A DNA stretch of 64,000 nucleotides from Sphingopyxis macrogoltabida (GTDB lineage: Bacteria; Pseudomonadota; Alphaproteobacteria; Sphingomonadales; Sphingomonadaceae). Made by a program: the position numbers and the translations under genes. Positions 8,604 through 25,159 of the stretch are shown in pieces (the first letter of the stretch is position 1; each line of letters opens with the position of its first letter). The stretch lies in NCBI RefSeq assembly GCF_001314325.1, contig NZ_CP009429.1, forward strand, positions 3,472,501-3,536,500, in the 5' to 3' direction. Below the pieces are notes generated by a model. That model saw nothing but the letters and a program-made list of their open reading frames with translations. It was not told the origin of the DNA and searched no databases.

Positions 8604-9082
8604 TGGCCGCCCTTCCTCAGTTCGGCCGTCATCCCGACGGTCCCGTCGACCGCCGGCGTGATCGTCAACTGGTCGACGACAAAGCCCTGTCCTTCGAGCG
8701 ATGCGAGCCAGTCGGTGAGCACGGGCGCTTTAGCCGTCGCGATGGCGATCGTCGCCTGCCGCTGCCCGCGCGCCTCGTTGCGGTCGAGCGTCAGCCCGAT
8801 CTCGCTCGCCGACTGGGCAAGATATTGATCGATCGCCGCGGCATCGACCGCCACAGCGACCGATTTCGCCGGGCGCTGCGCCAGCAATTGCACCTTGGCC
8901 GCGACGCGCCCCTCGCGCTCGACCGCAGCGCGATGCTCCGCCTCGAGATCGGCAAAGACGGCGACGGCCGGGCGGCCGATGCCCCACAGGATCACGCCGA
9001 GCGCCAGCACGCCCGCGATACCGACCAGCCAGCGCTCGCGCCCCGAAAGCCCCGTCCACCAATTCTGCAATTTTTCGGTCAT
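8600..9082 (-). CDS. gspM: Type II secretion assembly-platform protein GspM
   Basis: GspM (160 aa) is a bitopic inner-membrane protein. A short cytoplasmic N-terminus (WTGLSGRERW) is followed by one TM segment (LVGIAGVLALGVILWGIG), a coiled-coil-prone stretch at about 45-75, and a small ferredoxin-like periplasmic domain (ASLEGQGFVVDQLTITP). It partners GspL in the assembly platform. Overlaps of 4 nt with both gspL and gspN indicate tight coupling. Confidence 0.92.
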   Translation of the reverse strand: MTEKLQNWWTGLSGRERWLVGIAGVLALGVILWGIGRPAVAVFADLEAEHRAAVEREGRVAAKVQLLAQRPAKSVAVAVDAAAIDQYLAQSASEIGLTLDRNEARGQRQATIAIATAKAPVLTDWLASLEGQGFVVDQLTITPAVDGTVGMTAELRKGGQ

Positions 9083-10221
9083 GGCACCGCCCGGATCGTC
9101 ACATTGGCCATCTGCAGCCCGTCGGCTCCCGCCATCGGCTGCGCGGTGACGCGATAACCGCGAGCCTGCAACGCCAGCAGCACCTTGTTCACATCGTCGA
9201 CACGCGGCGCTGCCAGCGTTGTCGTCAGCGTCCCGTCGGTACGGTGCGAGAGGCTTTTGAGCGTGACGCCGGGCACGTCGCCCATCGCCCCGTAGAGCGC
9301 CGAGGCGGGCACGGAAAAGGCGAGCGGACCGCCCCCGGCGGCGGCGAGCCGGCGGTCGAGTTCGGCCTCGGCCGCCGTCGCGTCGGCCGCAGTGACCCCC
9401 GCCTTCTTCGCCATCGCGACGACCGCATCGTCGGCGCGCGCACTATCGCTCGACAGGCGGATGGCGTGGGTGATCGGGATGAGCAGGCTGATCGCGACCA
9501 GCACGATAAACAGCCGCTTGGCAAGCCGCAGCATCGCGGGATCGACCGACCAGCTTCGCTTCGGCTTCCACCCGCCGCTGAGCAGGTCGAGCGGCGGCGC
9601 GGCGAGCGTCAGCAGCAGCGCCTCGCGCATCCGATCGGCATCGAGCGGCGCGATATCACGCCCTCCCGCGATCAATCGATCGAGTTCGGGATCGGACGCA
9701 TAGGCGCGGTCGGCGGTGCGCACGATCTGCTCGCCGCCGAGTTCGGCGGTCCATAGCGTGCCCGGTTCGGGCGGCGGCACCGTCGCCGCCGCAGGCACGA
9801 TCGCCGCGGGATCGAAGCCCCGCGCCTTGAGCCAGCCCGTCCATGCGGTCATTGCCGCGTGGGTCGTCACGGCGACGGGCACCGCCTGCCCCGTGTCGGC
9901 GGGCTGTCCCGACACGACATGCAATCCAGCGGCATCGCCCAGACTGTCTTTCAGCGTATCGATCCGCGCCGCCGCGGCCGCCTGCGCCGGGGCCGCATCG
10001 GGATAGTGCCGCCACTGGATCGGCACGTCGGCGGCGGGAGCAAGCGCGACAAGCCGGTCGTCGGCACCATCGTCGTCCGGCTTTTCCCACGCGTCGACCC
10101 AGCCATCGTCCTGACCCGAATCGACGATCACGCCATCGTCGACGCGCAGCCACGCCGGCCGCGTGCCTTCGTCGTCGAGCGCCGTCAGCGGCGGAAGCCA
10201 CAGGATCAGCGTACGCGCCAC
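9079..10221 (-). CDS. gspL: Type II secretion protein GspL
   Basis: GspL (380 aa) has an actin-like cytoplasmic domain that docks the GspE ATPase, a TM segment at about residue 243-262 (LFIVLVAISLLIPITHAIRL) and a C-terminal periplasmic domain (LLALQARGYRVTAQPM). I place the start at GTG 10221 (VARTLILWLPP), 1 nt after the gspK stop. The frame is open upstream to 10299, but that part lies inside gspK and is arginine-rich. The 3' end overlaps gspM by 4 nt. Confidence 0.92.
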   Translation of the reverse strand: MARTLILWLPPLTALDDEGTRPAWLRVDDGVIVDSGQDDGWVDAWEKPDDDGADDRLVALAPAADVPIQWRHYPDAAPAQAAAAARIDTLKDSLGDAAGLHVVSGQPADTGQAVPVAVTTHAAMTAWTGWLKARGFDPAAIVPAAATVPPPEPGTLWTAELGGEQIVRTADRAYASDPELDRLIAGGRDIAPLDADRMREALLLTLAAPPLDLLSGGWKPKRSWSVDPAMLRLAKRLFIVLVAISLLIPITHAIRLSSDSARADDAVVAMAKKAGVTAADATAAEAELDRRLAAAGGGPLAFSVPASALYGAMGDVPGVTLKSLSHRTDGTLTTTLAAPRVDDVNKVLLALQARGYRVTAQPMAGADGLQMANVTIRAVP

Positions 10222-10222
10222 G

Positions 10223-11227
10223 TCAGTCGCCCTCGCCCCAGTCACGGCGGACGATCGACGGCGGCGCGGTACCCGCAGCGGGCGCGCCGCCATTCGCATC
10301 GATGAGCGAAACCGAAGTCAAGAAACCGTCCCCCATCGTCACATTCGTCGTCAGTGTCAGCCAGCGGCTCGTCATCCCCGCCTGTTCGGCGGCGTCGCCC
10401 GGATCGATCCCGGCAAGCGGCCCCGCTTTCCAGAATCGGACGCTGCTGCCATAGCCGTCGGCGGGCCGCGCTGCCAGCGCGGCGCGCGCATTCGCCACCC
10501 CGATCTCGCCGGGACGCAGCATCGCGACCAAAGGCGCCTGTTCGGGCGCCAGCGTGTTGACGTTGAGCCGGATCGGATCGGCGACCGGCAGCACGCAAAT
10601 CCAGGGCTTGAGCCGCGCATAGATTTTCGGCGTCACCCCGCGCACCGCGCGCAGTTCGCTGATATCGGCCATTTTGCGGTTACCGGGCAGATAGGATGCC
10701 TGCATCGACCGGTAGACGCCGTCCTCGGCGCCTAGCGGTCCTTCGTTGCTGTCGCTGTCGATCCAGTCGGCGGTCGCTGCCGCAATCGCCTTCGCCTGAC
10801 CGGGGTCGATGCCGAGCAGGGTCATCAGTTCGGCGAACTGCGCCACGGCGCCGGCGCGCTGGCTGAGCCGCCCGGGCGCCGCTTCGACAACGAGCGCGTT
10901 GAGGTTGAAGCAATTATTCGCATCGGTCAGCCGCGCCCGGCCTTCGCCGCCCGGCAGCGGCAGCACGAACTCGCGCCCGAGCCAGCCACCGGCGAGCGTC
11001 AGCCGCGACGGATCACGCCCGACCAGATCGGCAACGCGGCGCAGCGCAATCTGTTCGGCGGCAAAGCTGTAGGCGCGGCCCTGATCGATCGTCGCCGCGC
11101 TGCCCGCGATCCGCGTCGCGAGCGTGAGCCGGTCGAGCGCCGTCGCAGCGATCACTGCCATGACCGCGACGAGCAGCAGCACGCCGAGCAGCGCGGCACC
11201 GCGTTCGCCTCTCGCCGGCGGCCTCAT
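10223..11227 (-). CDS. gspK: Type II secretion minor pseudopilin GspK
   Basis: GspK (334 aa) is the large tip pseudopilin of the pseudopilus. The prepilin leader ends ARGERG, followed by AALLGVLLLVAVMAVIAATA. GspK characteristically lacks the Glu5 of other pseudopilins, and here that position is Gly. The large insert domain follows with a helix-hairpin-helix-like part (IDPGQAKAIAAATADWID) and FNLNALV. Start ATG 11227 overlaps the gspJ stop (ATGA). The open frame upstream to 11488 is a shadow of gspJ. Confidence 0.93.
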   Translation of the reverse strand: MRPPARGERGAALLGVLLLVAVMAVIAATALDRLTLATRIAGSAATIDQGRAYSFAAEQIALRRVADLVGRDPSRLTLAGGWLGREFVLPLPGGEGRARLTDANNCFNLNALVVEAAPGRLSQRAGAVAQFAELMTLLGIDPGQAKAIAAATADWIDSDSNEGPLGAEDGVYRSMQASYLPGNRKMADISELRAVRGVTPKIYARLKPWICVLPVADPIRLNVNTLAPEQAPLVAMLRPGEIGVANARAALAARPADGYGSSVRFWKAGPLAGIDPGDAAEQAGMTSRWLTLTTNVTMGDGFLTSVSLIDANGGAPAAGTAPPSIVRRDWGEGD

Positions 11228-11835
11228 GGCACAGGCGCCTGCAAGGGAGGCGGAGGCGGCAATGCCGGGGCGGTGAGGAACAGCATGGCAAGCGGCGCCC
11301 GGCCCCGGCGGGTCAACCGCACTTCGACCGCACGCGGCAGGCGGTCGCCGGGCTCCGACGTCCAGCTCTCGCCCCAATTGCCCCGTTCGTCGCGATAGCG
11401 CACGGCGACCGCGTCGACCTCGCCGATCAGGCGATCGCCGTCGTTCAGCGCCGCGCCGTCGAGCATCGGCTGCACCGCGCGCCGCCATTCGCCGCCGGTC
11501 AGAGCATAGGCGACCCGTTCGACCGCAGGGCGCGGCCCGCCGTCCTGCGACGGTGCGCCGCCGTGGACGAAGGCGAAGCCGGTGGGCGAACCGATGAATG
11601 CCGGCACGGGCTCCCCCGCCTGCCCGCGCGTCGGGCGCTGCACCGCTTGCGCAAGGTCATTCGCCATCAGCGCGCGCACCCGGTTGATGCCGCCCATTGC
11701 CTTCAGGCGAAGCTGAACGGCATCCTGCGTATCGATACTGCTACGCAGCAGGCCGACTCCCATCGCGGCGATCGCCGCAAAGATCGACAATGCGACGAGC
11801 ATTTCGACGAGCGTGAAGCCGCGTTCGTCCTTCAT
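11224..11835 (-). CDS. gspJ: Type II secretion minor pseudopilin GspJ
   Basis: GspJ (203 aa) has a class III leader MKDERG followed by FTLVEMLVALSIFAAIAAMG, including the conserved Glu5. With GspI and GspK it forms the pseudopilus tip complex. The C-terminus is proline-rich (PALPPPPPLQAPVP). ATG 11835 overlaps the gspI stop by 4 nt, and its own stop overlaps gspK. Confidence 0.93.
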   Translation of the reverse strand: MKDERGFTLVEMLVALSIFAAIAAMGVGLLRSSIDTQDAVQLRLKAMGGINRVRALMANDLAQAVQRPTRGQAGEPVPAFIGSPTGFAFVHGGAPSQDGGPRPAVERVAYALTGGEWRRAVQPMLDGAALNDGDRLIGEVDAVAVRYRDERGNWGESWTSEPGDRLPRAVEVRLTRRGRAPLAMLFLTAPALPPPPPLQAPVP

Positions 11836-12197
11836 TGCGACGGCCTGATGATCGTCAGCACCGCCTGCCCGCGTCCGCTTTCGGGCCGGACGGTCAGGTC
11901 GATACGAAGCAGGCTGTCGTCGGCGGTCCTGGCGACGCGCTGTTCGACGCGCCAGTTGCGGCCGGCATTGGCGACGCCCGTCGCGCTGTTGCCGATCGTC
12001 GGCGGCGCCGGATCGGTCCACAGTTCGACAGCACGATTCTGCGCGACGATCCCCGCCATGGTGCTTTCGTCGAGATCGCCGGCTGTCCGTACGGCAAAAG
12101 CGTCGAGACGGACGAGCGTCAGCGCCGCAATGCTGATGATGCTGAGCGCGACGAGCATTTCAAGCAGCGTAAAACCGCTTTCACGATCATTGGCCAC
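11832..12197 (-). CDS. gspI: Type II secretion minor pseudopilin GspI
   Basis: GspI (121 aa) is a short pseudopilin with leader ANDRESG followed by FTLLEMLVALSIISIAALTL. The start is taken at GTG 12197, within the last codons of gspH; no in-frame ATG lies close upstream. Its size and the motif AGIVAQNRAVELW fit the family. Its stop overlaps the gspJ ATG. Confidence 0.92.
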   Translation of the reverse strand: MANDRESGFTLLEMLVALSIISIAALTLVRLDAFAVRTAGDLDESTMAGIVAQNRAVELWTDPAPPTIGNSATGVANAGRNWRVEQRVARTADDSLLRIDLTVRPESGRGQAVLTIIRPSQ

Positions 12198-12684
12198 GGC
12201 TGACCTCCCCCGTCGCCGAAACGCGCACGGTTTCGCGCGCGTCGCCGCCCGCAAGGACGACGGACTGCGGCGTCGGGCTGGTCCCGACGCGATCGAAAAG
12301 GATGCGCGATACGCCCTGCCCGTCGCCGGCAACGAAACGGACATCGCCCGGCCAGTTGCGCTGTTCGAACGCGCGGCCGGGCAGCGGCTGCCACGCCCCT
12401 TCGACCCGGCGCTCGAAGCCATAGCCCGACGGCGCGAAGTTGACCGCGACGCTGCGCCCCTCGATCACCGCCACGTCGCGCGCGGCGGCAAGGCGGGCGG
12501 CAAGGCGATCGGCCTCGCTGCGCACTGTGCGTTCGTCGCCGGGGATCGTCAGCACCACTGCGGCGGCGGCAAGCGCGAGGATGGCGAGCACGACCATCAG
12601 CTCGACCAGCGTGAAGCCGCGCTGGCCGTCAGGACAGTGCGCCCCGGTGGGAGCCGGGGCCCATGAAAGATTGTGCGGGCGCAA
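12187..12684 (-). CDS. gspH: Type II secretion minor pseudopilin GspH
   Basis: GspH pseudopilin with prepilin motif QRG followed by FTLVELMVVLAILALAAAAV and a typical globular domain. The start is uncertain. The frame is open upstream to 12936, but between the gspG stop (12727) and the prepilin motif lies a paired GC-rich REP-like element that reads through as SPAKAGAHLRPHN and similar. TTG 12684 is the nearest plausible start, giving an unusually long leader of about 22 residues before the cleavage Gly. ATG 12750 (MPTFAEKAE) would overlap gspG by 26 nt. I give the TTG start provisionally. Confidence 0.8.
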   Translation of the reverse strand: MRPHNLSWAPAPTGAHCPDGQRGFTLVELMVVLAILALAAAAVVLTIPGDERTVRSEADRLAARLAAARDVAVIEGRSVAVNFAPSGYGFERRVEGAWQPLPGRAFEQRNWPGDVRFVAGDGQGVSRILFDRVGTSPTPQSVVLAGGDARETVRVSATGEVSRGQ

Positions 12685-12707
12685 ATGGGCCCCGGCTTTC
12701 GCCGGGG
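12641..12707. repeat. Paired REP-like hairpins at the gspG-gspH junction
   Basis: Two GC-rich hairpins about 30 nt apart. The first is GCCCCGG (12641-12647) with CCGGGGC (12654-12660); the second is CCCCGGC (12690-12696) with GCCGGGG (12701-12707, 4-nt loop). The two units are inverted copies of the same core (GGGCCCCGGCTTTCGCCGGG type). They sit exactly where gspH should start and could also reduce downstream transcription or stabilise the upstream mRNA. Confidence 0.7.
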
Positions 12708-12724
12708 AACATCCAGCGAGCGCC

Positions 12725-13213
12725 TCAGCCTTCTCCGCGAATGTCGGCATTGTCGTCGGTCCCGCCGGGCGCCCCGTCGGCGCCGAGCGACCAGACGTCG
12801 AACGCCTTTCCGTTCGGCCCCGGCGCCTGATAATTATAGGGGCGGCCCCACGGATCTTCGGGCAGCTTCTTGATATAGCCGCCGCGGCGATAGCGTTCGG
12901 GTTGGGCGAGTGCCGGCGGCGCCGAAACAAGCGCATTCAGTCCGTCGGTGCTCGCCGGATAGGTGAGATTGTCGAGGCGATATTGTTCGAGCGCGGTTTC
13001 GAGCGTCGCGATGTCGGCTTTCGCCTTGGTCACCATCGCGCGATCCTGGCTGGGCAGCACGTTGATCATCACCACCGTGGCGAGCAGCCCGATGATGAAG
13101 ATCACCACCATCAGTTCGGTCAGCGTGAAGCCGCGCTCGTCGCGCTTCCGGCGGCCGGCGGCGGATCGGCCGGGATCGAGCATCAGGCGAAAGAAAAGCT
13201 GCATAAGCGACAT
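12725..13213 (-). CDS. gspG: Type II secretion major pseudopilin GspG
   Basis: GspG (162 aa) is the major pseudopilin. A long basic leader ends RRKRDERG, then FTLTELMVVIFIIGLLATVV with Glu5. The C-terminal calcium-site region typical of GspG is present (LPEDPWGRPYNYQAPG and WSLGADGAPGGTDDNADI). Starts at ATG 13213 or 13204 are both possible; 13213 is given. It follows the gspF stop directly and is followed by the REP-like interruption before gspH. Confidence 0.96.
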   Translation of the reverse strand: MSLMQLFFRLMLDPGRSAAGRRKRDERGFTLTELMVVIFIIGLLATVVMINVLPSQDRAMVTKAKADIATLETALEQYRLDNLTYPASTDGLNALVSAPPALAQPERYRRGGYIKKLPEDPWGRPYNYQAPGPNGKAFDVWSLGADGAPGGTDDNADIRGEG

Positions 13214-13214
13214 A

Positions 13215-14438
13215 TTATAGACCTGCGAGGTTCTGCAACTGGAGGATCGGAAGCAGGATGGCGAGAATGATGAGCGCGACGCAAGACCCCATAAGGACAA
13301 TTATGACAGGTTCGAGAAGCGCCATCGAGGCGGCGGTAAAACGATCGAACTCGCGTTCGAGATAGTCGGCGGCGCGTTCGAGCATCTGCTCCAATCGCCC
13401 CGCGCTTTCGCCGCTCGCGGTCATATAGACGAGGAGCGGCGGAAAGACGCCCGCGTCGCGCAGCGCGGCGGAAAGGCTGCCGCCGGCGCGGACCTGGTCG
13501 ACGATCGCCGCGGTCGCTCCGGCGAGCGCCGCGTTGCGGATCGTCGGGACGGTGAGCCGCAGCCCTTCGACGAGCGGCAGCCGGCTCGACACCATCGTCG
13601 ACAGCGTGCGGGCGAAACGGGCAGCATAGAGATCGCGGAGCAGGCGGCCGAGCAGCGGCAGGCGGAGCAGCCGCGCATCGACCCGCGCCTTGAACGCCGG
13701 GCGGCGCATCGCGGTGACCCAGCCAAAGGCTCCGGCGGCCAGCAGCAGCGCGATCAGCCACCACCAGTTGGCGGCAAAGCCCGAGATCGCGATCACCGCG
13801 CGGGTCAGGAAGGGCAGTTGCTGTCCCGTGTCGGTGAATTGTTCGACGACGCGCGGGACGACGAAGATCATCAGCGCCGCAACGACGCCGATCGCGACCA
13901 CGGCGAGGACGATGGGATAGGCGAGCGCCGCGACCAGCTTGCCGCGCACTTCGGCCTGCCGTTCGAGCAGGTCGGCGAGCCGGGCGAGGATCGTCGTCAG
14001 GCTGCCGGTGGTTTCGCCCGCCGCGACCATCGCGCGATAGAGCGGCGGGAAGCTCGCCGGCTGACGCGCCATCGCGTCGGCAAGCCGGCGGCCTTCGAGC
14101 AGCCCGGCGTGAACGTCGGCGATCACCGCCCGGGCGCTTTCGGCCTCGCTCTGCCGCGTCAGCGTGCGCAGCGCTTCTTCGAGCGGCGCGACCTCGACCA
14201 AAGTCGCGAGCTGGCGCGTGAACAGCGCCAGTTCCTTGCGGCCGAGCTTGTTGCGGCGAAAGGCGAGCAGCGACCGTTCGGCACGCGGCCGCGACCCCGC
14301 CGCCTCGACCGCGACGATATGGAATTTGCGCCGCACCAAGTCGGCGCGCGCGGCATCGTCGTTCGCCGCGGTCAGCCGTCCCTTGCGCTCGCGCCCCTGC
14401 GGGTCGATCGCCACATAGCGATAATCAGGCATCGACAT
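13215..14438 (-). CDS. gspF: Type II secretion inner-membrane platform protein GspF
   Basis: GspF (407 aa) is the polytopic core of the assembly platform, with two homologous T2SSF domains (about 70-195 and 275-400) and TM segments at about 170-195, 225-245 and 380-400. Motifs include FTRQLATLVEVAPLEEALR and MVAAGETTGSL with its second-repeat counterpart YMTASGESAGRLEQML. The N-terminus MPDYRYVAIDPQGRERKG is typical. It overlaps the gspE end by 14 nt; ATG 14432 is an alternative start. Confidence 0.96.
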   Translation of the reverse strand: MSMPDYRYVAIDPQGRERKGRLTAANDDAARADLVRRKFHIVAVEAAGSRPRAERSLLAFRRNKLGRKELALFTRQLATLVEVAPLEEALRTLTRQSEAESARAVIADVHAGLLEGRRLADAMARQPASFPPLYRAMVAAGETTGSLTTILARLADLLERQAEVRGKLVAALAYPIVLAVVAIGVVAALMIFVVPRVVEQFTDTGQQLPFLTRAVIAISGFAANWWWLIALLLAAGAFGWVTAMRRPAFKARVDARLLRLPLLGRLLRDLYAARFARTLSTMVSSRLPLVEGLRLTVPTIRNAALAGATAAIVDQVRAGGSLSAALRDAGVFPPLLVYMTASGESAGRLEQMLERAADYLEREFDRFTAASMALLEPVIIVLMGSCVALIILAILLPILQLQNLAGL

Positions 14439-15918
14439 CCTCGCGCCGCGCGACGCGGATCGCCTCCTCGGCGGTGGTCAGCCCCTTGGCAACCATCGTA
14501 CGCGCCGCCGACGCCAGCGTCGGTGCTTTCAGAAAGGCATGTTTGGCGATCATCGCCTCGTCGCCGCCGGCGTAGATATAGCGGCGCACCGTCTCGTCGA
14601 CCTTGATCGCCTCGAACACCCCGATACGGCCCTTGTAGCCGCTGCCGCCGCACTGGTCGCAGCCCTTGGGCCGCCAGATGACGGTGCCGATATCGAGCCC
14701 GAGCATCGCGGCAACGCTGTTGTCGGCCTGCACCGGTTCGCGGCAATGCTCGCAGAGCTTGCGGACGAGCCGCTGCGCGATCACCGCGCGTAGCGTCGAG
14801 GCGAGCAGGAATGGTTCGACCTTCAGATCCTTGAGGCGCGTGATCGCGCCGACCGCATCGTTGGTGTGGACAGTCGACAGCACGAGGTGGCCGGTCAGCG
14901 ACGCCTGCACCGCGATATCGGCGGTCTCGCGGTCGCGGATTTCGCCGACCATCACGACGTCGGGGTCCTGGCGCAGGATCGCGCGCAGGCCCGCCGCGAA
15001 ATCGAGCCCGACCTTGGCATTGACCTGCGTCTGGCCGATGCCGTCGACAGCATATTCGACCGGATCCTCGACGGTCAGGATATTGCGCTGGCCGTCGTTC
15101 AACTGCTTGAGCGCGGCATAGAGCGACGTCGTTTTGCCCGATCCGGTCGGCCCGGTAACGAGAATGATGCCATTGGGTTCGGCAAGCGCTTCACGCAGGA
15201 TGCGGTCGGCCTCGCCCGACAGGCCGAGGACGTCGAAATCGATCCCCGCGGTATCCTTGTCGAGGATGCGCATCACGACGCGCTCGCCGGCCCGGCTGGG
15301 CAGCGTCGAAACGCGGACGTCGACCGCCTTGCCCGCCAGCGTCAGCGCGATGCGCCCGTCCTGCGGCACGCGGCGTTCGGCGATGTCGAGCCGCGCCATC
15401 ACCTTGATGCGGCTGACGACGACGGGCGCAACGTGCGGCGGCATGCGCAGATGCTCGCGCAGCACCCCGTCGGTGCGCATGCGTACGACCAGCCCGCTTT
15501 CATACGGTTCGATATGAATGTCGCTGACGCCCTGCCGCACCGCTTCGGCAATGATCGCGTTGATCAGGCGGATCGCGGGGGCATCGTCGGCACTGTCGAG
15601 CAAGTCTTCGGCGCTCGGCAGGCTGAAATCGAGGTCGCTGCCGTCGAGCGATCCCGCCATCGCGGCGGCCGAGGCATCGACGGCATAATGATCGGACAGC
15701 AGTCGGTCGAAATCGGCGGCGCTGGCGGTCGCAACGCGTAGCGGCTGCGCCAGATAGCGCTTGACCTCAATGAGCACCGCCGGGTCGCTGTCCTCGCGGA
15801 GCGTCGCCAGCCAGATGCCGCCCTCCCCCGGCGCGATCACGACGCCGTGCGCGCGCGCGAAGCCATAGGGAATATCGACCGGCGCCGGGGGCGCGGCGGT
15901 CGGTTCGGAATCGGTCAC
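14425..15918 (-). CDS. gspE: Type II secretion ATPase GspE
   Basis: GspE (497 aa) is the hexameric cytoplasmic ATPase powering pseudopilus assembly. Walker A is GPTGSGKTTSLYAAL (about 253-267), the Asp box VEDPVEYAVDGIGQTQ, Walker B DPDVVMVGEIRDRETA, and the His box region TGHLVLSTVHTNDA. A zinc tetracysteine motif (CEHCREP and CDQCGGSGYKGR) lies at about 395-440. It docks on GspL and GspF. The ATG overlaps the gspD stop (ATGA). Confidence 0.97.
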   Translation of the reverse strand: MTDSEPTAAPPAPVDIPYGFARAHGVVIAPGEGGIWLATLREDSDPAVLIEVKRYLAQPLRVATASAADFDRLLSDHYAVDASAAAMAGSLDGSDLDFSLPSAEDLLDSADDAPAIRLINAIIAEAVRQGVSDIHIEPYESGLVVRMRTDGVLREHLRMPPHVAPVVVSRIKVMARLDIAERRVPQDGRIALTLAGKAVDVRVSTLPSRAGERVVMRILDKDTAGIDFDVLGLSGEADRILREALAEPNGIILVTGPTGSGKTTSLYAALKQLNDGQRNILTVEDPVEYAVDGIGQTQVNAKVGLDFAAGLRAILRQDPDVVMVGEIRDRETADIAVQASLTGHLVLSTVHTNDAVGAITRLKDLKVEPFLLASTLRAVIAQRLVRKLCEHCREPVQADNSVAAMLGLDIGTVIWRPKGCDQCGGSGYKGRIGVFEAIKVDETVRRYIYAGGDEAMIAKHAFLKAPTLASAARTMVAKGLTTAEEAIRVARREDVDA

Positions 15919-18116
15919 GGATATTCTCCGGGCGGCGGCGCGGGCGCGTTCGAGATCGAGGGCGGCACGTCGGTGCTGATCACATTGCCATCGGGCCCGC
16001 GCAGCGCGGGCAGATCGACGGGAGTGACGGTCACATCGCCGGCCGAGGGCGGCGACGGCGGCGTCGTCCCCATATAGTCGCGGACCAGCGTATCGATCGC
16101 CGGTTCCTGATCGGGGTTCCGCTGCAACTGGAAATTGCGGACATAGCCGTAACGCCGCGCGGTCAGCGCAGCATTATCCTCGCGATTGCGCAGGACGGTC
16201 GGGCGGATGAAGACCATCAGGTTCGTCTTGGAACGGCTGCGGCTCCGCGACTTGAACAATTCGCCGATCAGCGGGATGTCGCTCAGCAACGGAATACGCT
16301 CGATCGTCTTGCGCTCGTCGTCGTTGAGCAGGCCGCCGATCGCGAGGATTTCGCCGTCGTCGACCGTCAGCACGGTCTCGAACGAGCGCTTGTTGAGGAT
16401 GAGGTCGCTGTTGCGCGACGACACCGGACCCGCGACGCTCGACACTTCCTGACGGAGGAACAGCTTGACCTCGCCCGCGCCGTTGACCTGCGGCGTCACT
16501 TCGAGCTTGATGCCCACCTCTTCGCGCTGGACGGTGCGGAAGGCGTTGTCGAAATTGTCGCTCAGCGCTTCGCCCGTCGTGATCGGCACTTCCTGTCCGA
16601 CGAGGAATTTCGCCGCCTGATTGTCGAGCGTGACGATATGCGGCGTCGCGAGCAGGTTCGACGTCGTGTCCGATTTCACCGCGTTGATGATCGCGCCGAA
16701 GATCGTGTTCTTGCCGATATCGCCCGCGAACCCTGCGAAACCGCCGGTCGCCTGGAGCAGCGACGCCGCCGCGGCTTCCTGCAGGCTGCTGCCGAGCGCG
16801 CTCGACGTCTGGGTGACGACGGTGGTGCCGTCGACGGTCGTCTTGTCTTCGGTCAGCTTGGTCGCGGCATAGGCGCCGCCGAGCGTGAAGATGTTCGGCT
16901 GGGCATTGCTATAATTGGTTGCGACGAACGGAATATTCTTGCCGCCGAGCAGGAACTGGACGCCGAGCCGCTTTGCCGCATCGTCGCCGATCTCGACGAC
17001 GATCGCCTCGACCAACACCTGCTCGCGGCGGCTGTCGAGCTGGCGGATCAGTTCGCCGAGCATCCGCTGCACTTCGCTGTTGGCGGCGACGATGATCGCA
17101 TTGGCGCCTTCGTAGCGGGTGACGATCGCCGGACCGCGGGTCGAGATGCTGCCGCCGGCGCCGCTGACCGAGGTCGGCGCGCTGTTCGTTGCGGCGGCGG
17201 GCGCAGCACCGGCGCTGCCCGATGACGAGGAAGAGGACGAAGCCGGCGGCAGTCCGGCCTTCTGCGCCGGATCGCTGCCGCCGCCGATCAGTTGCTGAAG
17301 CGTCGGCAACAGCGTTTCGGCATTGGCATGTTCGAGCCAATAGACGCGCAGCTCGGTGCCGCCCGCCGCCTTGGCATCGAGGTCGTTCGCCATCTGGACG
17401 AAGCGCGCGACCATCGCCTGATCGCCGCGCAGGGCAATCGCGTTGCTGCTGTCGATCGGCACGATGGCGACGGGCGATTGCGCGCCCTCGCCGGCTGCAG
17501 GCACCAGCGCCTGCAGCGCGGCCGCGATCTCGCGCGCGCCGGCATTTTTCAGCGTCACGATCTGGCTCGTTGAACTGTCGCGGTCGATGCTGCTCGCGAG
17601 CGCGCGGATGCGGCGGATATTGTCGGCGAAATCGGCGACGACCAGGCTGTTGGCGTTGCGGTTCGCGGTCAGCGATCCCTGCGGGCTGACCAGCGGGCGC
17701 AGCGTTTCGACCGCCGACACGGCGTCGATGTGGCGCAGGCGGATGATTTCGGTGACGAACTGGTTCTGCGCCGCGCCGCCGCTGCCGATGCGGCCGGGCT
17801 GGGCGGCGGCGCCGTCGATCGGCTGGACGCGATAGCTGCCGTTCGGTCCCGGCACCGCGACCAGCCCGTTCGAGCGCAGCGTCGAGAGGAAAATCTCGAA
17901 ATATTCGCTCCGCGACAGCGGCCGGTCGGTCACCACCGATACCTTGCCATTGACGCGGCCGTCGATGACGAAAGTGCGCCCGGTGATCCGCGCCGCATCC
18001 TGGATGAACGCGCGGATATCGGCGTCGCGGACGTTCAGCGTATATTGCGCGAGCGCGGGTCCCGGCGTTGCGGAAACGAGCGCGGCGGCGAGCATCAGGG
18101 ACAGTTTGAGACGCAT
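15915..18116 (-). CDS. gspD: Type II secretion secretin GspD
   Basis: GspD (733 aa) forms the outer-membrane secretin channel. A signal peptide (MRLKLSLMLAAALVSATPG, cleavage near ALAQ) leads into periplasmic N0-N3 domains (N0 begins YTLNVRDADIRAFIQDAARI). The C-terminal secretin domain contains VPITTGEALSDN, VGIKLEVTPQVNGAGEVKL and IGELFKSRSRSRSKTNLMVF. A Ser-rich low-complexity linker lies within N3, as in many GspD proteins. ATG 18116 is chosen for the clear signal peptide, 4 nt after the gspC stop; the open frame upstream overlaps gspC. Confidence 0.96.
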   Translation of the reverse strand: MRLKLSLMLAAALVSATPGPALAQYTLNVRDADIRAFIQDAARITGRTFVIDGRVNGKVSVVTDRPLSRSEYFEIFLSTLRSNGLVAVPGPNGSYRVQPIDGAAAQPGRIGSGGAAQNQFVTEIIRLRHIDAVSAVETLRPLVSPQGSLTANRNANSLVVADFADNIRRIRALASSIDRDSSTSQIVTLKNAGAREIAAALQALVPAAGEGAQSPVAIVPIDSSNAIALRGDQAMVARFVQMANDLDAKAAGGTELRVYWLEHANAETLLPTLQQLIGGGSDPAQKAGLPPASSSSSSSGSAGAAPAAATNSAPTSVSGAGGSISTRGPAIVTRYEGANAIIVAANSEVQRMLGELIRQLDSRREQVLVEAIVVEIGDDAAKRLGVQFLLGGKNIPFVATNYSNAQPNIFTLGGAYAATKLTEDKTTVDGTTVVTQTSSALGSSLQEAAAASLLQATGGFAGFAGDIGKNTIFGAIINAVKSDTTSNLLATPHIVTLDNQAAKFLVGQEVPITTGEALSDNFDNAFRTVQREEVGIKLEVTPQVNGAGEVKLFLRQEVSSVAGPVSSRNSDLILNKRSFETVLTVDDGEILAIGGLLNDDERKTIERIPLLSDIPLIGELFKSRSRSRSKTNLMVFIRPTVLRNREDNAALTARRYGYVRNFQLQRNPDQEPAIDTLVRDYMGTTPPSPPSAGDVTVTPVDLPALRGPDGNVISTDVPPSISNAPAPPPGEYP

Positions 18117-18120
18117 AAAC

Positions 18121-19002
18121 CTATTGCTTCGAGAGGAAGATGGCGACGGGGACGACGCTGGCACCGCGCTCGACCTCGAGCGAGATGCGCGCCCCCGGCG
18201 TAAACTGGCCGGCGAGCGAGGCGGCATCGCCCGCCGAACCGATCGGGCGGCCGTTGACCGAGCGGATGACATCGCCCGGGCGCAGCCCGGCGGCGCGGAA
18301 CACGGCGCCGTCGCCCTGCGGCTGGACCGCGAGGCCGGTGACCTTACCGCTCTCGGTCCGCGGGGCGAAGCCGACGCCCGATTTCAGGGCCGCCGGCGAC
18401 ATCTCGCCGCTGGCCGAGACACCGCTCGCGGGGGCCGCAGCGGTTTCGGGGGTCGGCATGGCGGGGGCGGCCGCGGGACTGGCGACCGGCGCCTCGCCGC
18501 TCTGATCGAGGAACAGGCTTTCGCGCGCGCCGCCGCGATCAAGCAGCACATGGTCGAACGCGACGCCCACCAGCTTGACGCCGGGCGCGATCTCGTCGCC
18601 GACGGCGTAGCTGTTCTGCACCCCGTCCTCGCCGGCGATGATCGCCGAACCGCTGCCCGTCGCTTCGTTGATATTGACCCCGAACAGGGTGAGGCCGAGC
18701 GCGGTGACGGTGGCGCTGGCGGGGCCCTGCGGTGCGGTGCGGAAGAAAGGGTCGAGGCCGACGAACAGCGCGCGGCGCTCGGCGGGCGACGCAATGACCG
18801 CCGCCTGCGGTTGCCAGGCGCCGAGCGGCGACAGCGGCACGATGAGGGTCCAGAGCAGGCGGATACATTGCCAGACCAGCAACGCGCCGAGCAGCGCGAC
18901 CAGCAGCAGCGGCCAGATGTCGCGCGGCGCGCGTTTGGTCCGCAGCCAGACGGGCAGGCCACGCGGCAGCCGAACGGCCGATCCGGGCATCAGCGTCGCC
19001 AT
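18121..19002 (-). CDS. gspC: Type II secretion protein GspC
   Basis: GspC (293 aa) links the inner-membrane platform to the GspD secretin. It has a TM segment at about 35-55 (PLLLVALLGALLVWQCIRLL), a homology region (LTLFGVNINEATGSGSAII), an Ala/Pro-rich linker and a C-terminal PDZ domain (FRAAGLRPGDVIRSVNGRPI). ATG 19002 is preferred because AGGG lies 7 nt upstream; ATG 19032 would add ten residues and leave little space below the upstream repeat array. It is the first gene of the gsp operon. Confidence 0.92.
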   Translation of the reverse strand: MATLMPGSAVRLPRGLPVWLRTKRAPRDIWPLLLVALLGALLVWQCIRLLWTLIVPLSPLGAWQPQAAVIASPAERRALFVGLDPFFRTAPQGPASATVTALGLTLFGVNINEATGSGSAIIAGEDGVQNSYAVGDEIAPGVKLVGVAFDHVLLDRGGARESLFLDQSGEAPVASPAAAPAMPTPETAAAPASGVSASGEMSPAALKSGVGFAPRTESGKVTGLAVQPQGDGAVFRAAGLRPGDVIRSVNGRPIGSAGDAASLAGQFTPGARISLEVERGASVVPVAIFLSKQ

Positions 19003-19040
19003 GAAATAACCCTGTCCCCCGCCTGAAAGCATTGCACGCG

Positions 19041-19058
19041 AATCGCCTAGGGGCGATT
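19041..19058. promoter_or_regulatory. Short palindrome in the gspC leader
   Basis: AATCGCC (19041-19047) and GGCGATT (19052-19058) form a perfect 7-bp inverted repeat with a TAGG centre. It sits between the Pho-box-like array and the gspC start, near the expected -10/transcription start. It could be an operator or a leader hairpin; no family assignment is possible. Confidence 0.4.
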
Positions 19059-19059
19059 G

Positions 19060-19099
19060 ATGACAATCAGTTGACGGGAAGATTACAGTTTTTTGTCAG
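19060..19099 (-). promoter_or_regulatory. Pho-box-like array upstream of gspC
   Basis: Read on the minus strand, four heptamers lie exactly 11 bp apart: CTGACAA (19099-19093), CTGTAAT (19088-19082), CCGTCAA (19077-19071), TTGTCAT (19066-19060). The PhoB consensus is direct CTGTCAT-type heptamers with 4-bp spacers, so phase and orientation fit a double Pho box directed at gspC. Individual units match 4-6 of 7 positions. Phosphate-starvation control of the secretion operon is inferred. Confidence 0.65.
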
Positions 19100-19137
19100 C
19101 CGGGCGAGTCCGGTGCGATCGGACCCGCCCTGCCCGA

Positions 19138-21834
19138 TCAGAACTTCACCGACGCACTCAGCGAGAAGGTCCGGCCCAGCTTGTAGCGGTTGAAGAAGAT
19201 CTTGTTGTCGCCCGCGGTCTGCACTTCCTGATATTTGCGTCCGGTCAGGTTGCGCGCCTCGAACTTCAGCTCGATTTCCTTGTTCAGCAGCGTCAGCCCC
19301 TGCCGCGCAACGAAGTCGAGCTGGATGCCCGGCTTTTCCTCGAGGTCGGGCTGGCCCGACGGACCGCGGCTGGTGACGCGCGGGCTGGCATAGGTCAGCA
19401 GCAACGTCTGCTGCGACAGCTTGTCCTGATCCTCCAGCCCGATCTGGAAATTGAGCAAATGGTCGGACTGACCCGTCATCGGTGCGCCGTCGAAGAAGAA
19501 GTTGGCGGCATTCTGCACCACGCCATTGATCACCGTGGTGTCGCCGTCGCGGACCCGGATTTCGGATTTGGTGTAGGTATAGTTGCCGATCAGCACGAGG
19601 CGGCGGCTCTGCCAGAAGGGCGAGTCCGACAGCTTGTCGAGCGGGAAATATTTCTGCACTTCGACCTCGGCGCCGTACAGCGTCGCCTTAGGCGCGTTGG
19701 CGTAGCTGCTGTTCACCGACGAGTCCGAAATCGAGGTATAGGTCTCGATCGGATTGTCGATCGACTTGTAGAAGCCGGCGACCGTCAGGCGCTGATCCTT
19801 GGCGAAATACCACTCATAGCGCGCTTCGGCATTCCATAGCTCGCTGTCGGTCAGCGACGGGTTGCCGCGGAACAGGCGGTTCGATTCGGGGTCCTGATAG
19901 ACCTGCGCCACCAACTCGCGGAACTGCGGCCGCGCGATCGTCTTCGATCCGTTGACGCGCAGCTGCATGTCGGGCGCGACCTCCCAGGTCAGCGTGACCG
20001 CGGGCAGCCAATAGTCGTTGTTCAGGTTGGTCGCGACGATCGCCGACGATCCGGTGCCGAACAGGTCGATCGGAACGACGGTCTGCTTCGCTTCCTCGTA
20101 ACGCACCCCGGCGTTGACGTTGACGCCGGGCACGATCTCCGCCTGCAACTGGCCGTAGCCGGCGTGGGTCGTCAGCTTGGCGTCGAAGGCCGCGGTGCCG
20201 TCCTGCGCCGAGGTTTCGAGCAGCGTGATGTCGTAAAGCTGGATCGTCGCGTCGGAGAGCAGATAGTCGGGGCGCAGCTGTTGCACCGCCAGCGGCAGGT
20301 TCGAGGCACGGAACTGGAAGGTCCGGCGTTCCGAAACGCGATGCGTGTCGCTGTAGGCATAGCCGACCGTCGCGGTGATCCGCGGAGCGAGCTCGTACGA
20401 CAGGTCGACGCCGCCCGACCACAGATCCTCGTTGAGGTCCGAAAAGGCGATCGTCGCATCGCCGCGGTTGCCGCCGAGGTCGTTGACGAACTTGTCGCCT
20501 ACCGGGTCGCCCGGCTGGTTGGTGCGGACATAGGTAAAGCCGCGCTCATAGGGTGCTTCGCGCTGCGAATTGGCGTAGGCGCCGCGCAAGTCGAGCTTCA
20601 GCCGGTCGAAGTGGAATTCGCCGACGAGCTGCGTGTTGATGAGCTGGCGCTCGTACCACGCCGTATCCTGCTTCATGATGTCGCGGTCCGACTGGTTGGC
20701 GTCGGTACCGAGCGCGAGGCGCGCCTGCTTCAACGTGTCGCGGATATAGAGGTTGGTCCAGCGGATCTTGTGGTCGCCGAGTTCGAGCCCGAAACCGAGC
20801 AGCCCGTTCACCACGACGCGATTGTCGGTGATGACGCGGTTGTAGCTCGTCTGCGGATCGCCCGACAGGTCGTCGTTGACCGACGTCTGCTGCAACGTGT
20901 CGCGGGTGCGCCACTTGTTGCTGATCCCCGCGGTCGCGATGATACCGAGTTCACCGTTCGGCAACGCAATCGTCGTGCCGCCAGTGATCCCGGCCGACCA
21001 GTTGATCGGGATATGGTCGTTTTGCTGGAGCAGCGTCGTTTCGGCGTTGACCAGCTCCATCTGGATCGCCTCCAGCTGGTCCTGGGTGAAGTCGGCACCT
21101 TCCAGAATCGGCTTGCCACTGGCGAGCGCGGCCTTGAGCAGCGGCGGCACATCGCGCGTGCCGTCGTCGAAACCGGTCCAGTCGGTGTCGCTGCCATAAT
21201 AGGTATAGCCGAGCTGGTTCGTCGTTTCGCTGTCCCAGCCGATCCCGCCGCTGAAGGTCAGGAAGGGTTCGCGCGGCGTCGCCTTGGTCGTGAGATTGAT
21301 CACGCCGCCGCCGAATTCGCCGGGGAAGTTCACCGAGAAGCTTTTCTGGACCAGCGTCGAATCGATGACGTTGGTCGGGAAGATGTCGAGCGGCACGACG
21401 CGCTTCAGCGGCTCGGGGCTGGGCAGCGGCGAACCGTTGAGCAGCGCCAGCGAATAGCGATCGCCAAGGCCGCGGACATAGACGAAGCCGCCACCGACGA
21501 CCGACAGGCCGGTAACGCGCTGCAGCGAGCCCGAGATATCGCCCTCGCCGGTCCGCGCGATGTCGGCCGACGACAGCGACGACACGACTTCGGGGGTCGA
21601 ACGGACGATGTTGGGGGTAAAGCGGCCCGTGACGACGATCTCCTGATCGGCGCCGCCCGGAATCGAAATATCGACCTCTTCGTCGGCGGACGCGGCGTCG
21701 TCGGTGGCCGGTTCGGCGGCGACGGGCGGCGTGTCGGCGGCGGGTTCGGCGCTCGCATCCTGCGCCAGAGCGGCAGGCGCGACGAGCGCGGAACTGAGGA
21801 GAAGCAGGCTGGCGAAGATCGGCCGCTTGGTCAT
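19138..21834 (-). CDS. TonB-dependent outer-membrane receptor
   Basis: An 898-aa TonB-dependent receptor with a signal peptide (MTKRPIFASLLLLSSALVAP, cleavage near ALAQ) and an acidic low-complexity region at about 30-60. A TonB-box-like EIVVTG and a plug domain (about 70-190: SADIARTGEGDISGSLQRV, VYVRGLGDRYS, FPGEFGGGVINL) are followed by a long beta-barrel ending in an aromatic residue (LSASVKF). The substrate cannot be read from sequence. It lies 85 nt downstream of a lipoprotein gene and immediately upstream of the gsp operon, all on the same strand. With the Pho-type repeats nearby, uptake of a product released by a secreted or surface enzyme is a plausible role (inference). ATG 21834 is chosen for the signal peptide. 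Confidence 0.93.
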   Translation of the reverse strand: MTKRPIFASLLLLSSALVAPAALAQDASAEPAADTPPVAAEPATDDAASADEEVDISIPGGADQEIVVTGRFTPNIVRSTPEVVSSLSSADIARTGEGDISGSLQRVTGLSVVGGGFVYVRGLGDRYSLALLNGSPLPSPEPLKRVVPLDIFPTNVIDSTLVQKSFSVNFPGEFGGGVINLTTKATPREPFLTFSGGIGWDSETTNQLGYTYYGSDTDWTGFDDGTRDVPPLLKAALASGKPILEGADFTQDQLEAIQMELVNAETTLLQQNDHIPINWSAGITGGTTIALPNGELGIIATAGISNKWRTRDTLQQTSVNDDLSGDPQTSYNRVITDNRVVVNGLLGFGLELGDHKIRWTNLYIRDTLKQARLALGTDANQSDRDIMKQDTAWYERQLINTQLVGEFHFDRLKLDLRGAYANSQREAPYERGFTYVRTNQPGDPVGDKFVNDLGGNRGDATIAFSDLNEDLWSGGVDLSYELAPRITATVGYAYSDTHRVSERRTFQFRASNLPLAVQQLRPDYLLSDATIQLYDITLLETSAQDGTAAFDAKLTTHAGYGQLQAEIVPGVNVNAGVRYEEAKQTVVPIDLFGTGSSAIVATNLNNDYWLPAVTLTWEVAPDMQLRVNGSKTIARPQFRELVAQVYQDPESNRLFRGNPSLTDSELWNAEARYEWYFAKDQRLTVAGFYKSIDNPIETYTSISDSSVNSSYANAPKATLYGAEVEVQKYFPLDKLSDSPFWQSRRLVLIGNYTYTKSEIRVRDGDTTVINGVVQNAANFFFDGAPMTGQSDHLLNFQIGLEDQDKLSQQTLLLTYASPRVTSRGPSGQPDLEEKPGIQLDFVARQGLTLLNKEIELKFEARNLTGRKYQEVQTAGDNKIFFNRYKLGRTFSLSASVKF

Positions 21835-21862
21835 GTGAAAGTCCCCGAGGAATATGCAGGTA

Positions 21863-21898
21863 GGGAGCGGGCCGCCTGTGTCAGGCCTGCCCGCTCCC
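21863..21898. terminator. Strong hairpin between lipoprotein and TonB-receptor genes
   Basis: GGGAGCGGGC (21863-21872) and GCCCGCTCCC (21889-21898) form a perfect 10-bp stem, with a further GCCTG/CAGGC pairing inside the loop. It lies in the 85-nt gap between the two minus-strand genes. No U-run follows on the minus strand, so partial attenuation or 3'-end protection of the lipoprotein mRNA is more likely than complete termination. Confidence 0.55.
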
Positions 21899-21919
21899 CA
21901 TTTGGCTTGCGAGCGGCGA

Positions 21920-23488
21920 TCAGGTGACCGGAAGCGCCGAGCAGCTGCCGCTGCTGGTGCCGAAGTCCGCCGTCGCCGAGTTACAGGTCCAGCCCTGATA
22001 CCAGGTGTCGTTGGCATCGCGGACCGCGCCGACATAGGCCGTCGTGTCGAAGAAGGGCGCGATCGTCTTGGCATCATAGGCCGCGAAGCCCGTTTCGGTC
22101 GCGCCGTTGATGAACAGGTTCGCGAGGCTCGGCGTATAGTCGAAGCGGTTGTCCGTGCCGGCGTTGAAGATCGCCTGGACTTCCGCGTCGGTCACCGCCG
22201 GGCTGCCGCCACCGCGGAACGGACGGTCGGCGCTGCACTTCAGCGATACCGAGAAGAAGCGCGGCGGCCCCTGTTCGTCGGTACCCGCCGTCTGCGTCGT
22301 CGACGTGCTGTCGATGCGGATACACGAGGTGTCGCTGGTCATCAGGCCGTTGACGAAACTGTAGTCGGCGCCGCCGCGGATGCGGATGGCGGCGGCGTTG
22401 CTGTTGTTGGCGTTGCGATGGATGAAGGTGAAGTTCGAGATGGTGACGTTCTGGCGCGGAACGGCCTGTTCGTTGCCGTCCGAGTCGATTTCCATCATCG
22501 AGTCGCCCACCGTTCCGCCGGCGCGGCCGATCGCGATCGCATATTGGATATTGCCCTTGTAGCCGACGTCGGTGTCGAAGCTGTCATCCTCGGCGCCGGT
22601 GACGACCATATGCTTGAAGTTCGGCCGGCCGCCGAACACTTCCATGCCGTCGTCCGAGCTGTTGTGGATCTGGATGTGGTCGAACTGGGTGGCCGAACCG
22701 ACACCCGACGGGGTGAGGCCCTGCAGTTCCTTGTCGGCGCTCAGGATGAAGCCCGAATAGCGGATCTGGACGTACGACATGCGGCCCGAATTGTCGGCCG
22801 GCTGCGCACCGCCATAGAGCGCGTTCGACGTGCCTTCGGTGTCGCGTTCGCAATCGACCGTGCCTTCGGCGGCGCCCGGCGCGAGGCAGTCGGTGACCGG
22901 CGCGCGTCCCAGCACAACGACACCGCCCCACAGCTGCGAGGTGCTGTCACCCGCCGAACTGACGACGTTGCCACGACCGGTGAAGATGATCGGCTGGGTC
23001 GGGGTGCCGACGGCGTCGATCTTGTTGCCGCGGTTGACGACGAGGTACGAAACGCCCGTCGAACCGAAGACGATGACGCCCGGATCGATCGTCAGCGTCG
23101 CGACGGTGTTGGTGCTCGCCGCACCCTGGTCGGTGCCGACGTCGACGCGGCCGGGCAGCGAGTAGATGACGCCGTCGACCTTCGGGATCGCCGTCGTCGA
23201 GTTGAAACGCGCGGGGAAACCGCAGTTGCGCCACGTGCCTTCGTTGCCGGTGATCGTGCCGAGGTCGGTGAGCTGGTCGGCGCCCGCGATGGTCGGGCAG
23301 TTCGCCGCCGGGGTAACGCCCGTCGGGGTCGGCGTCGGAGTCGGGGTGGGCGTGGGCGTCGGGGTCGGCGTCGGAATGACGATCACACCTTCGCCCGGCG
23401 ATGCGACGCCGTCGGCGCCGCACGCCGCAAGAATGGAACAGGCCACGCCGCTGAGCATGACCAAACGAACGCGTGCGAAAGCCGCCAT
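21920..23488 (-). CDS. Putative surface lipoprotein with Thr-Pro repeat and beta-helix-like body
   Basis: A 522-aa lipoprotein: signal peptide ending SILAAC (lipidated Cys23), then a (Thr-Pro)n linker at about 39-56, then a large Asn/Gly/Asp-rich domain. Repeated strand-turn units (GVIVFGSTGVSYLVVNRGNK, ISNFTFIHRNANNSNAAAIR) suggest a right-handed parallel beta-helix. Several Asp/Asn-rich loops (NSSDDGMEVFGGR, GAEDDSFDTDVG, EIDSDGN) could bind calcium. Four or more cysteines sit in the body. I do not recognise a catalytic motif. ATG 23488 has GGAG upstream. It is the first gene of a unit with the TonB receptor and lies under a six-unit Pho-type repeat array; being a type II secretion client is an inference from neighbourhood. 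Confidence 0.82.
   Translation of the reverse strand: MAAFARVRLVMLSGVACSILAACGADGVASPGEGVIVIPTPTPTPTPTPTPTPTPTGVTPAANCPTIAGADQLTDLGTITGNEGTWRNCGFPARFNSTTAIPKVDGVIYSLPGRVDVGTDQGAASTNTVATLTIDPGVIVFGSTGVSYLVVNRGNKIDAVGTPTQPIIFTGRGNVVSSAGDSTSQLWGGVVVLGRAPVTDCLAPGAAEGTVDCERDTEGTSNALYGGAQPADNSGRMSYVQIRYSGFILSADKELQGLTPSGVGSATQFDHIQIHNSSDDGMEVFGGRPNFKHMVVTGAEDDSFDTDVGYKGNIQYAIAIGRAGGTVGDSMMEIDSDGNEQAVPRQNVTISNFTFIHRNANNSNAAAIRIRGGADYSFVNGLMTSDTSCIRIDSTSTTQTAGTDEQGPPRFFSVSLKCSADRPFRGGGSPAVTDAEVQAIFNAGTDNRFDYTPSLANLFINGATETGFAAYDAKTIAPFFDTTAYVGAVRDANDTWYQGWTCNSATADFGTSSGSCSALPVT
23321..23375 (-). repeat. Thr-Pro codon repeat in lipoprotein linker
   Basis: A degenerate hexanucleotide repeat (plus strand GTCGGG/GTCGGC/GTGGGC units) encodes about nine Thr-Pro dipeptides just after the lipid anchor. 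It is an in-frame linker repeat whose copy number could vary between strains. Confidence 0.8.
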
Positions 23489-23593
23489 GAAAATCTCCGT
23501 TCCCGGTGCGCCTTCGCGCCCCACATGAAAAACCACCGATCAACGAGAAATGTCTGTGCTCGCCCCCGGTGACGCCGCCACTAGGGTGATTCG

Positions 23594-23655
23594 ATGACGG
23601 TCTGACGCCAGAGCGATGACAGTTGAGTGACGGTTTCAGGACGCTTTGGTGACAC
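23594..23655 (-). promoter_or_regulatory. Six-unit Pho-box-like array upstream of the lipoprotein gene
   Basis: On the minus strand, heptamers occur every 11 bp: GTGTCAC (23655-23649), GCGTCCT (23644-23638), CCGTCAC (23633-23627), CTGTCAT (23622-23616), CTGGCGT (23611-23605), CCGTCAT (23600-23594). CTGTCAT is identical to the PhoB half-site consensus and three others differ at one or two positions; the fifth unit is weak. The array ends 106 nt upstream of the lipoprotein ATG. The 11-bp phasing is the hallmark of tandem PhoB binding. Direct PhoB control is inferred, not shown. Confidence 0.75.
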
Positions 23656-23787
23656 GCCCGGCGCGCGGGGCCCGGCATTGCCGTGCCGCGAAGAAACAAA
23701 TGCTGCGAAGCTCGCTTGCATCGCCCCGAAAGCTTTGCTAGGCGCCCGCTCCTACCTGGTGCCGGCCCGTCCGGACCATCATGATGT

Positions 23788-23874
23788 GCGGTCGTGGCGG
23801 AACTGGTAGACGCGCAACGTTGAGGTCGTTGTGGCCGAAAGGCCGTGGAAGTTCGAGTCTTCTCGACCGCACCA
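23788..23874 (+). tRNA. tRNA-Leu (anticodon GAG)
   Basis: A class II tRNA of 87 nt with encoded CCA. Acceptor GCGGTCG (23788-23794) pairs with CGACCGC (23864-23870). The anticodon stem is CAACG/CGTTG with loop TTGAGGT (anticodon GAG). A long variable arm is present, and the T-arm has the canonical TTCGAGT loop. It reads Leu CUC/CUU codons. Confidence 0.95.
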
Positions 23875-25040: not shown

Positions 25041-25159
25041 GTTATGATTTTCCCTGAATGGATCGTGCGACCGGCACCGATGCCGCCCCCACATCGTAGA
25101 GACGCGTGAGGAGGCCGCATCTGCAGCCGATTCCGTAAAGGAATTTCGATAGAAGGTTG

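Follow-up and report, generated by a model that had tools for sequence, protein, structure and literature searches.

The window analysed here, a stretch of 64,000 nucleotides from Sphingopyxis macrogoltabida, carries on its minus strand an elpS-like lipoprotein gene, then a gene for a TonB-dependent receptor and then a type II secretion operon running from gspC to gspN, which is the gene order of an ElpS locus (Table 1). This resembles the order elpS (cc0170), cc0171 and gspC to gspN of Caulobacter crescentus, and the part available of the paper on that locus (PMC2996285) mentions similar arrangements of lipoprotein, receptor and gsp genes in Sphingomonas alaskensis, Hyphomonas and Xanthomonas. 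Judged by gene order and by the text of the same paper, the elpS-like gene would be the counterpart of cc0170/ElpS. The ATG at 23488 was taken as its start in preference to the upstream GTG of the open reading frame list, because the closest homologues align from that ATG. For comparison we used the best 80 of 404 candidate loci, which come from Sphingopyxis, Sphingobium, Sphingomonas, Blastomonas and relatives. In all 80 of these best loci the receptor gene follows elpS in the same orientation, and GspC likewise in 59 of the 80; downstream sequence of 4.5 kb or more is available for 71 of the 80. The gene at the gspL position of the window (9079-10299, minus strand) gave no Pfam match. A gene for a small UrcA-family protein (TIGR04433) is located at 24690-25094, also on the minus strand.

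Table 1. Features of the elpS-gsp region, with positions in the window
Feature	Position	Strand	Basis or remark
Six-unit phased array of PhoB half-sites (equal to three 22-bp Pho boxes) before the elpS-like gene	23594..23655	-	Sequence, matrix, conservation
-10-like element TAGTGG, following the elpS array after 10 nt	23578..23583	-	Geometry in orthologues
elpS-like lipoprotein gene	21920..23488	-	522 aa; lipobox LAAC, invariant Cys23; modelled beta-helix
GC-rich hairpin lacking a T-run, in the gap from elpS to the TonB receptor gene	21862..21899	-	Folding energy, conservation
TonB-dependent receptor gene	19138..21834	-	Downstream of elpS
Second phased PhoB-type array, four units (CTGACAA, CTGTAAT, CCGTCAA, TTGTCAT), before gspC	19060..19099	-	
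-10-like element TAGGCG, following the gspC array after 10 nt	19044..19049	-	Putative assignment
gspC	18121..19032	-	T2SSC; the ATG at 19002 is a possible true start
gspD	15915..18155	-	TIGR02517, 556.6 bits (cut-off 351); start tentative
gspE	14425..15918	-	
gspF, G, H, I, J, K, L, M, N	7887..14438	-	gspL by position

The lipoprotein gene and the sequence around it

The original prediction had described the product of the elpS-like gene as beta-helix-like, and this description agrees with a confident predicted model, whose fold matches that of right-handed beta-helix proteins such as alginate epimerases and lyases, polygalacturonases, phage tailspikes and NosD. The sequence itself is far from these proteins, with 12% identity to one of them and 7-15% across the 50 structure matches listed. 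Pfam alone gave a beta-helix match in only 3 of 35 relatives (best E 0.2), and a search of solved structures with the sequence profile of the protein returned 0 matches at E up to 1. Since many enzymes and non-enzymes share the beta-helix, the modelled fold gives no function. Constant adjacency of the two genes, taken together with the Caulobacter work, suggests that the lipoprotein probably cooperates with the TonB receptor on the surface of the cell, where they would catch or free a phosphorus source.

Between elpS and the receptor gene, the stretch 21835-21925 folds with -41.8 kcal/mol (z -3.6). Under a stricter loop limit than that of an earlier uncontrolled count (79 of 80 at 9 pairs or more, G-T pairs allowed), a hairpin stem of at least 11 pairs was present in 74 of the best 80 of 404 loci against 5.2% of 400 dinucleotide shuffles, and a stem of at least 9 pairs in 78 of these 80 loci against 26.5% of the shuffles. 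A scan for intrinsic terminators detected none behind elpS, and the whole-window scan with the 12-heptamer matrix described below detected no phased PhoB array between elpS and the receptor gene.

Upstream of elpS, the six minus-strand heptamers of the original prediction, with their strict 11-bp spacing, are found exactly where they had been placed. Read on that strand from 23655, the units with their spacers are GTGTCAC-CAAA, GCGTCCT-GAAA, CCGTCAC-TCAA, CTGTCAT-CGCT, CTGGCGT-CAGA and CCGTCAT-CGAA. The array is flanked by a divergent tRNA-Leu gene (23788-23874, plus strand) and by the ATG at 23488, from which it is separated by 105 bases. The core of the PhoB heptamer in E. coli is given as CTGTCAT in the part available of PMC4415409. 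One unit of the array is identical to this core, as had been predicted, and three are near to it (GTGTCAC, CCGTCAC and CCGTCAT); GCGTCCT and CTGGCGT are weak. The array thus contains the two or more 11-bp direct repeats with heptamers near CTGTCAT which make up a PHO box, the motif is also present at other phosphate genes of the genome, and PhoB itself is encoded adjacent to phoU and pst (TIGR02154, 340 bits, cut-off 296).

The elpS array in the genome and in related genomes

We scored phased heptamers with a matrix of 12 heptamers built from four further phosphate promoters of this genome, those of pstS, porin O/P, PhoX and the NUDIX-DUF47-PiT genes; a 16-heptamer matrix, which was used first, holds in addition the four heptamers of an odd site at 541021. 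With the 12-heptamer matrix the best six-unit score of the 64-kb window at step 11 was 38.4 and fell on the elpS array, while the best six-unit score at nine other steps was 18.8. In 100 dinucleotide shuffles of the whole window the six-unit score had a mean of 4.0 (sd 3.6) and a maximum of 11.9. The six-unit consensus with up to three mismatches matched once in the 5.75-Mb genome, at the elpS array (control 0), and the five-unit consensus matched at two sites, the elpS array and the region upstream of the NUDIX-DUF47 and PiT transporter pair. The latter site is a phased array of five units (genome 972419-972468); behind it come a NUDIX-DUF47 fusion gene and then the gene of a PiT phosphate transporter. 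The four-unit consensus gave 10 matches at 6 places and its reversed control 0. Four of the six places precede the elpS-like gene, NUDIX-DUF47-PiT, the PhoX phosphatase gene and a phosphate-selective porin gene near phoU/phoB/pst; the remaining two are the oddly oriented site by a CDP-alcohol phosphatidyltransferase gene (541021) and a site at 2284151. The array at 541021-541059 is a good one of four units, and it points away from the phosphatidyltransferase gene.

A two-unit pattern with one mismatch was too loose to detect arrays, as it matched 90 times in the genome (27 times when reversed), and it served solely to locate the phosphate promoters. Such frequent two-unit matches are what would be expected if the elpS repeats were a product of chance or of base composition. 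However, six units in phase score 38.4 against a shuffle maximum of 11.9, and the conservation in relatives described below is specific to the 11-bp phase, so that we give practically no credence to chance.

The relatives were examined in two sets, and as their genomes are related no p-value given here is exact. The first set comprised 90 family upstream regions (30 loci and 60 further stretches by rank, two genomes being represented twice; full-length, split and weak partial matches of lower rank were left out). With the 16-heptamer matrix the mean best-of-four score of this set was 10.96 at step 11 and between -4.5 and -0.4 at eight other steps. Compared with their own dinucleotide shuffles, 71 of the 90 regions reached p ≤ 0.05 and 19 were not significant; a score of at least 15 was reached by 31 of the 90 at step 11 and by at most 3 of the 90 at any other step. 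The 12-heptamer matrix gave the same result (12.10 at step 11 and -2.7 to 1.6 at other steps). The second set comprised the elpS orthologues among the best 80 of 404 loci, which after removal of nine loci beginning inside the gene left 71 upstream regions. A score of at least 15 (16-heptamer matrix) was found at step 11 in 68 of these 71 and at eight other steps in none, and in 67 of the 71 the run in phase comprises five to seven units if weak ones are included. Two of the checks that the original prediction had proposed, a PhoB matrix scan and a search for the array upstream of orthologues, thus came out in its favour, with scores above background in the window as well as in relatives.

A search of 289 genomes of the class for the reach beyond the family gave matches in 9, and four of these, our own genome included, belong to the family. 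Of the five remaining genomes two are from a single genus, and another matches weakly and in part. A clear array was absent from three of the four non-family elpS upstream regions that were read, and the fourth (L228) has a weak run of three units; the signal of the array outside the family is therefore thin.

A TA-containing element follows the array at a fixed distance. The pattern NNGTCAY-N8-NYTA occurs in 68 of the 71 orthologue upstream regions from the best 80 of 404 loci, in 0 of 71 on the opposite strand, and in a mean of 0.62 after shuffling of the letters. Among the 90 family upstream regions the geometry was found in 56, against 2 on the other strand, and 34 lack its strict form. 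In the E. coli phoA promoter about 10 nt separate the end of the PHO box from the -10 element, and the elpS array of the window ends at the same distance from TAGTGG, which we take as a putative -10 element. At the pstS, porin and PhoX sites of the same genome, read by eye, this spacing is not clearly present, and a plain sigma-70 scan of 17500-24200 found no minus-strand promoter. The sequence just behind the -10 element (about 23550-23577) is also conserved in relatives and is perhaps a leader element of the elpS message.

Conservation by column was calculated for the 68 of 71 loci that carry the anchor NNGTCAY-N8-NYTA, 31 of them Sphingopyxis-like and 37 from other genera; because the loci were chosen by this anchor, the columns of unit 6 and of the -10 element that it covers are conserved by construction. 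The heptamers hold 1.36-1.79 bits per column in the Sphingopyxis-like loci, against 0.49 in the upstream flank, and 0.90-1.61 in the other genera, against 0.23, unit 6 being partly fixed by the anchor in both groups. Heptamers are more conserved than the 4-bp spacers at all six units of the 37 other loci and at units 1-4 of the 31 Sphingopyxis-like loci (unit 6 again partly anchor-fixed), the spacers of units 5 and 6 being invariant in the latter. Units 1, 3, 4 and 6 are near the consensus in the Sphingopyxis-like loci and units 2 and 5 are not, while in the other genera units 2, 4 and 6 are nearest and units 3 and 5 are weak. Strong units 4 and 6 and a weak unit 5 are therefore common to both groups, and the distal part differs. 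In the consensus of the non-Sphingopyxis upstream regions a TGTCAT resembling a heptamer is also conserved; it precedes unit 1 by about 20 bp and does not keep the 11-bp phase.

These profiles bear on whether the whole array is used. It may be argued that the promoter-proximal box alone is functional and that the units upstream of it contribute nothing, being relics or weak extras, as the highest conservation in the Sphingopyxis-like loci falls on unit 6 with its spacer and on the -10 region (columns partly fixed by the anchor) and some orthologues, namely L204, L209, L215 and L218, keep only three or four units. On the other hand, units 1, 3 and 4 hold 1.53-1.64 bits per column in the Sphingopyxis-like loci, against 0.49 in the flank, and the long phased runs seen in most orthologues speak against relics. 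We consider a lone proximal box rather improbable and favour a role for the complete array.

The second array and the type II secretion operon

In addition to the array predicted originally, the window contains a second one between the receptor gene and gspC, whose four units score 26.7 against a four-unit shuffle maximum of 19.5. A gspC upstream region was usable in 68 of the best 80 of 404 loci; 64 of these 68 score at least 20 at step 11 and none does so at other steps. A looser form of the -10 geometry was found in all 68, with 2 on the opposite strand. In nine loci the secretion operon lies on the other strand, and there the array stays at gspC. We also scanned 2.46 Mb of strand sequence (both strands) from the best 80 of 404 loci with the 12-heptamer matrix. 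At a score of at least 20 and step 11, 57 arrays fell at elpS, 64 at gspC and 7 elsewhere, three of the last group being at contig ends and resembling gspC promoters; steps 9, 10, 12 and 13 gave 1, 0, 0 and 0 arrays. When the threshold was lowered to 15 the numbers were 70 at elpS, 64 at gspC and 19 elsewhere.

Among gspC upstream regions of 30 further family loci, taken from 30 of 83 matched genomes, 19 score at least 15 and 11 fall below. The array at this threshold was present in 17 of 21 cases where gspC lies beside elpS, against 2 of 9 where the two are apart or the genome is without elpS (labels assigned by hand from coordinates). Fisher's p for this difference, in related genomes, is 0.004, and 0.02 when two of the 'apart' pairs, which lie on different contigs, are omitted. 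This is a hint that the pairing of the elpS and gspC arrays is selected. Among non-family stretches, L241 has a good three-unit array before gspD and L239 a weak one before gspC; in L240 the top four-unit run (13.1) lies at the estimated gspC start.

PhoB as the likely regulator of lipoprotein and exporter

The best explanation of these observations, and in our opinion a highly probable one, is that the elpS array is a conserved PhoB-dependent promoter and that the second array would switch gspC to gspN. When phosphate is low, phosphorylated PhoB would fill the 11-bp direct repeats head to tail. Units 5 and 6, ending 10 nt before the TA-containing -10 element, would replace a -35 box, and the upstream boxes would bring additional PhoB dimers to the elpS promoter, from which the lipoprotein gene would be transcribed; loading of the dimers may be cooperative, and the two arrays may differ in strength. 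The hairpin behind elpS may shield its message and reduce read-through into the receptor gene. The four-unit array, at an equal distance from its -10 element, would turn on the type II secretion operon, so that PhoB would control cargo and receptor as well as exporter through two promoters, each tuned on its own, and the purpose would be to scavenge phosphate on the cell surface or beyond it. Since most of the close relatives examined carry both arrays at corresponding positions, exhaustion of phosphate probably turns on cargo as well as exporter. Array length might further act as a setting, the six-unit and four-unit arrays giving the two operons different phosphate thresholds or strengths and ordering exporter and cargo in time; we offer this tentatively and lean against it.

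The elpS repeats might instead bind another regulator of the OmpR/PhoB family which uses 11-bp direct repeats. Other OmpR-family regulators do bind direct repeats about one helical turn apart, and units 2 and 5 deviate from the PhoB consensus. However, the matrix that detected the array was trained on promoters of this genome which precede the genes for PstS, the phosphate porin, PhoX and NUDIX-DUF47-PiT, and the Caulobacter counterpart, ElpS, is induced by phosphate starvation according to the part available of PMC2996285. Another regulator is thus very unlikely, and the assignment of the sites to PhoB, as originally predicted, is supported by matrix scores, relatives, the encoded PhoB and the Caulobacter induction.

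The same 2010 paper reports, in the part available, that the Caulobacter secretion apparatus and cc0171 are constitutive, which by analogy would count against control by PhoB, and that ElpS does not need type II secretion to cross the outer membrane but depends on it for release (PMC2996285). Type II secretion is on the other hand named among the functions of the Caulobacter PhoB regulon (PMC11208175, as far as available). The available text of the locus paper does not contain 'pho box', whereas in the window phased PhoB-type arrays precede elpS as well as gspC. The 2016 Caulobacter PhoB ChIP study may already list the Caulobacter counterparts. Titles and abstract openings of the open-licence literature gave no description of the elpS and gspC arrays in sphingomonads.

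Promoters with more than two Pho units and a phosphate-responsive type II system are already known (PMC4415409, PMC9769906, both as far as available). E. coli ugp has multiple PHO boxes, and in Streptomyces PHO operators the number and organisation of the 11-nt repeat units vary (PMC4415409); a map for E. coli PhoB is given in PMC10294691, likewise seen in part. Like these promoters, the elpS array has more units than one two-unit box. Unlike them, it has six, with five to seven in most orthologues, at a fixed distance from the TA element, and it is unusually long and well conserved. In Pseudomonas aeruginosa the Hxc type II secretion system accumulates with its secreted cargo under phosphate limitation, but that cargo consists of alkaline phosphatases, while the linked candidate cargo here is a lipoprotein beside a TonB receptor (PMC9769906, as far as available).

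Thus, combined together, our results suggest that a readable PhoB code governs both an ElpS-type lipoprotein and an entire type II secretion system in the loci studied from Sphingopyxis, Sphingobium and Sphingomonas. This bears on the disagreement of the Caulobacter papers, in which the apparatus is either constitutive or part of the PhoB regulon, without settling the Caulobacter case. The natural series of arrays with three to seven units would moreover offer material on how repeat number sets the threshold of a response regulator.
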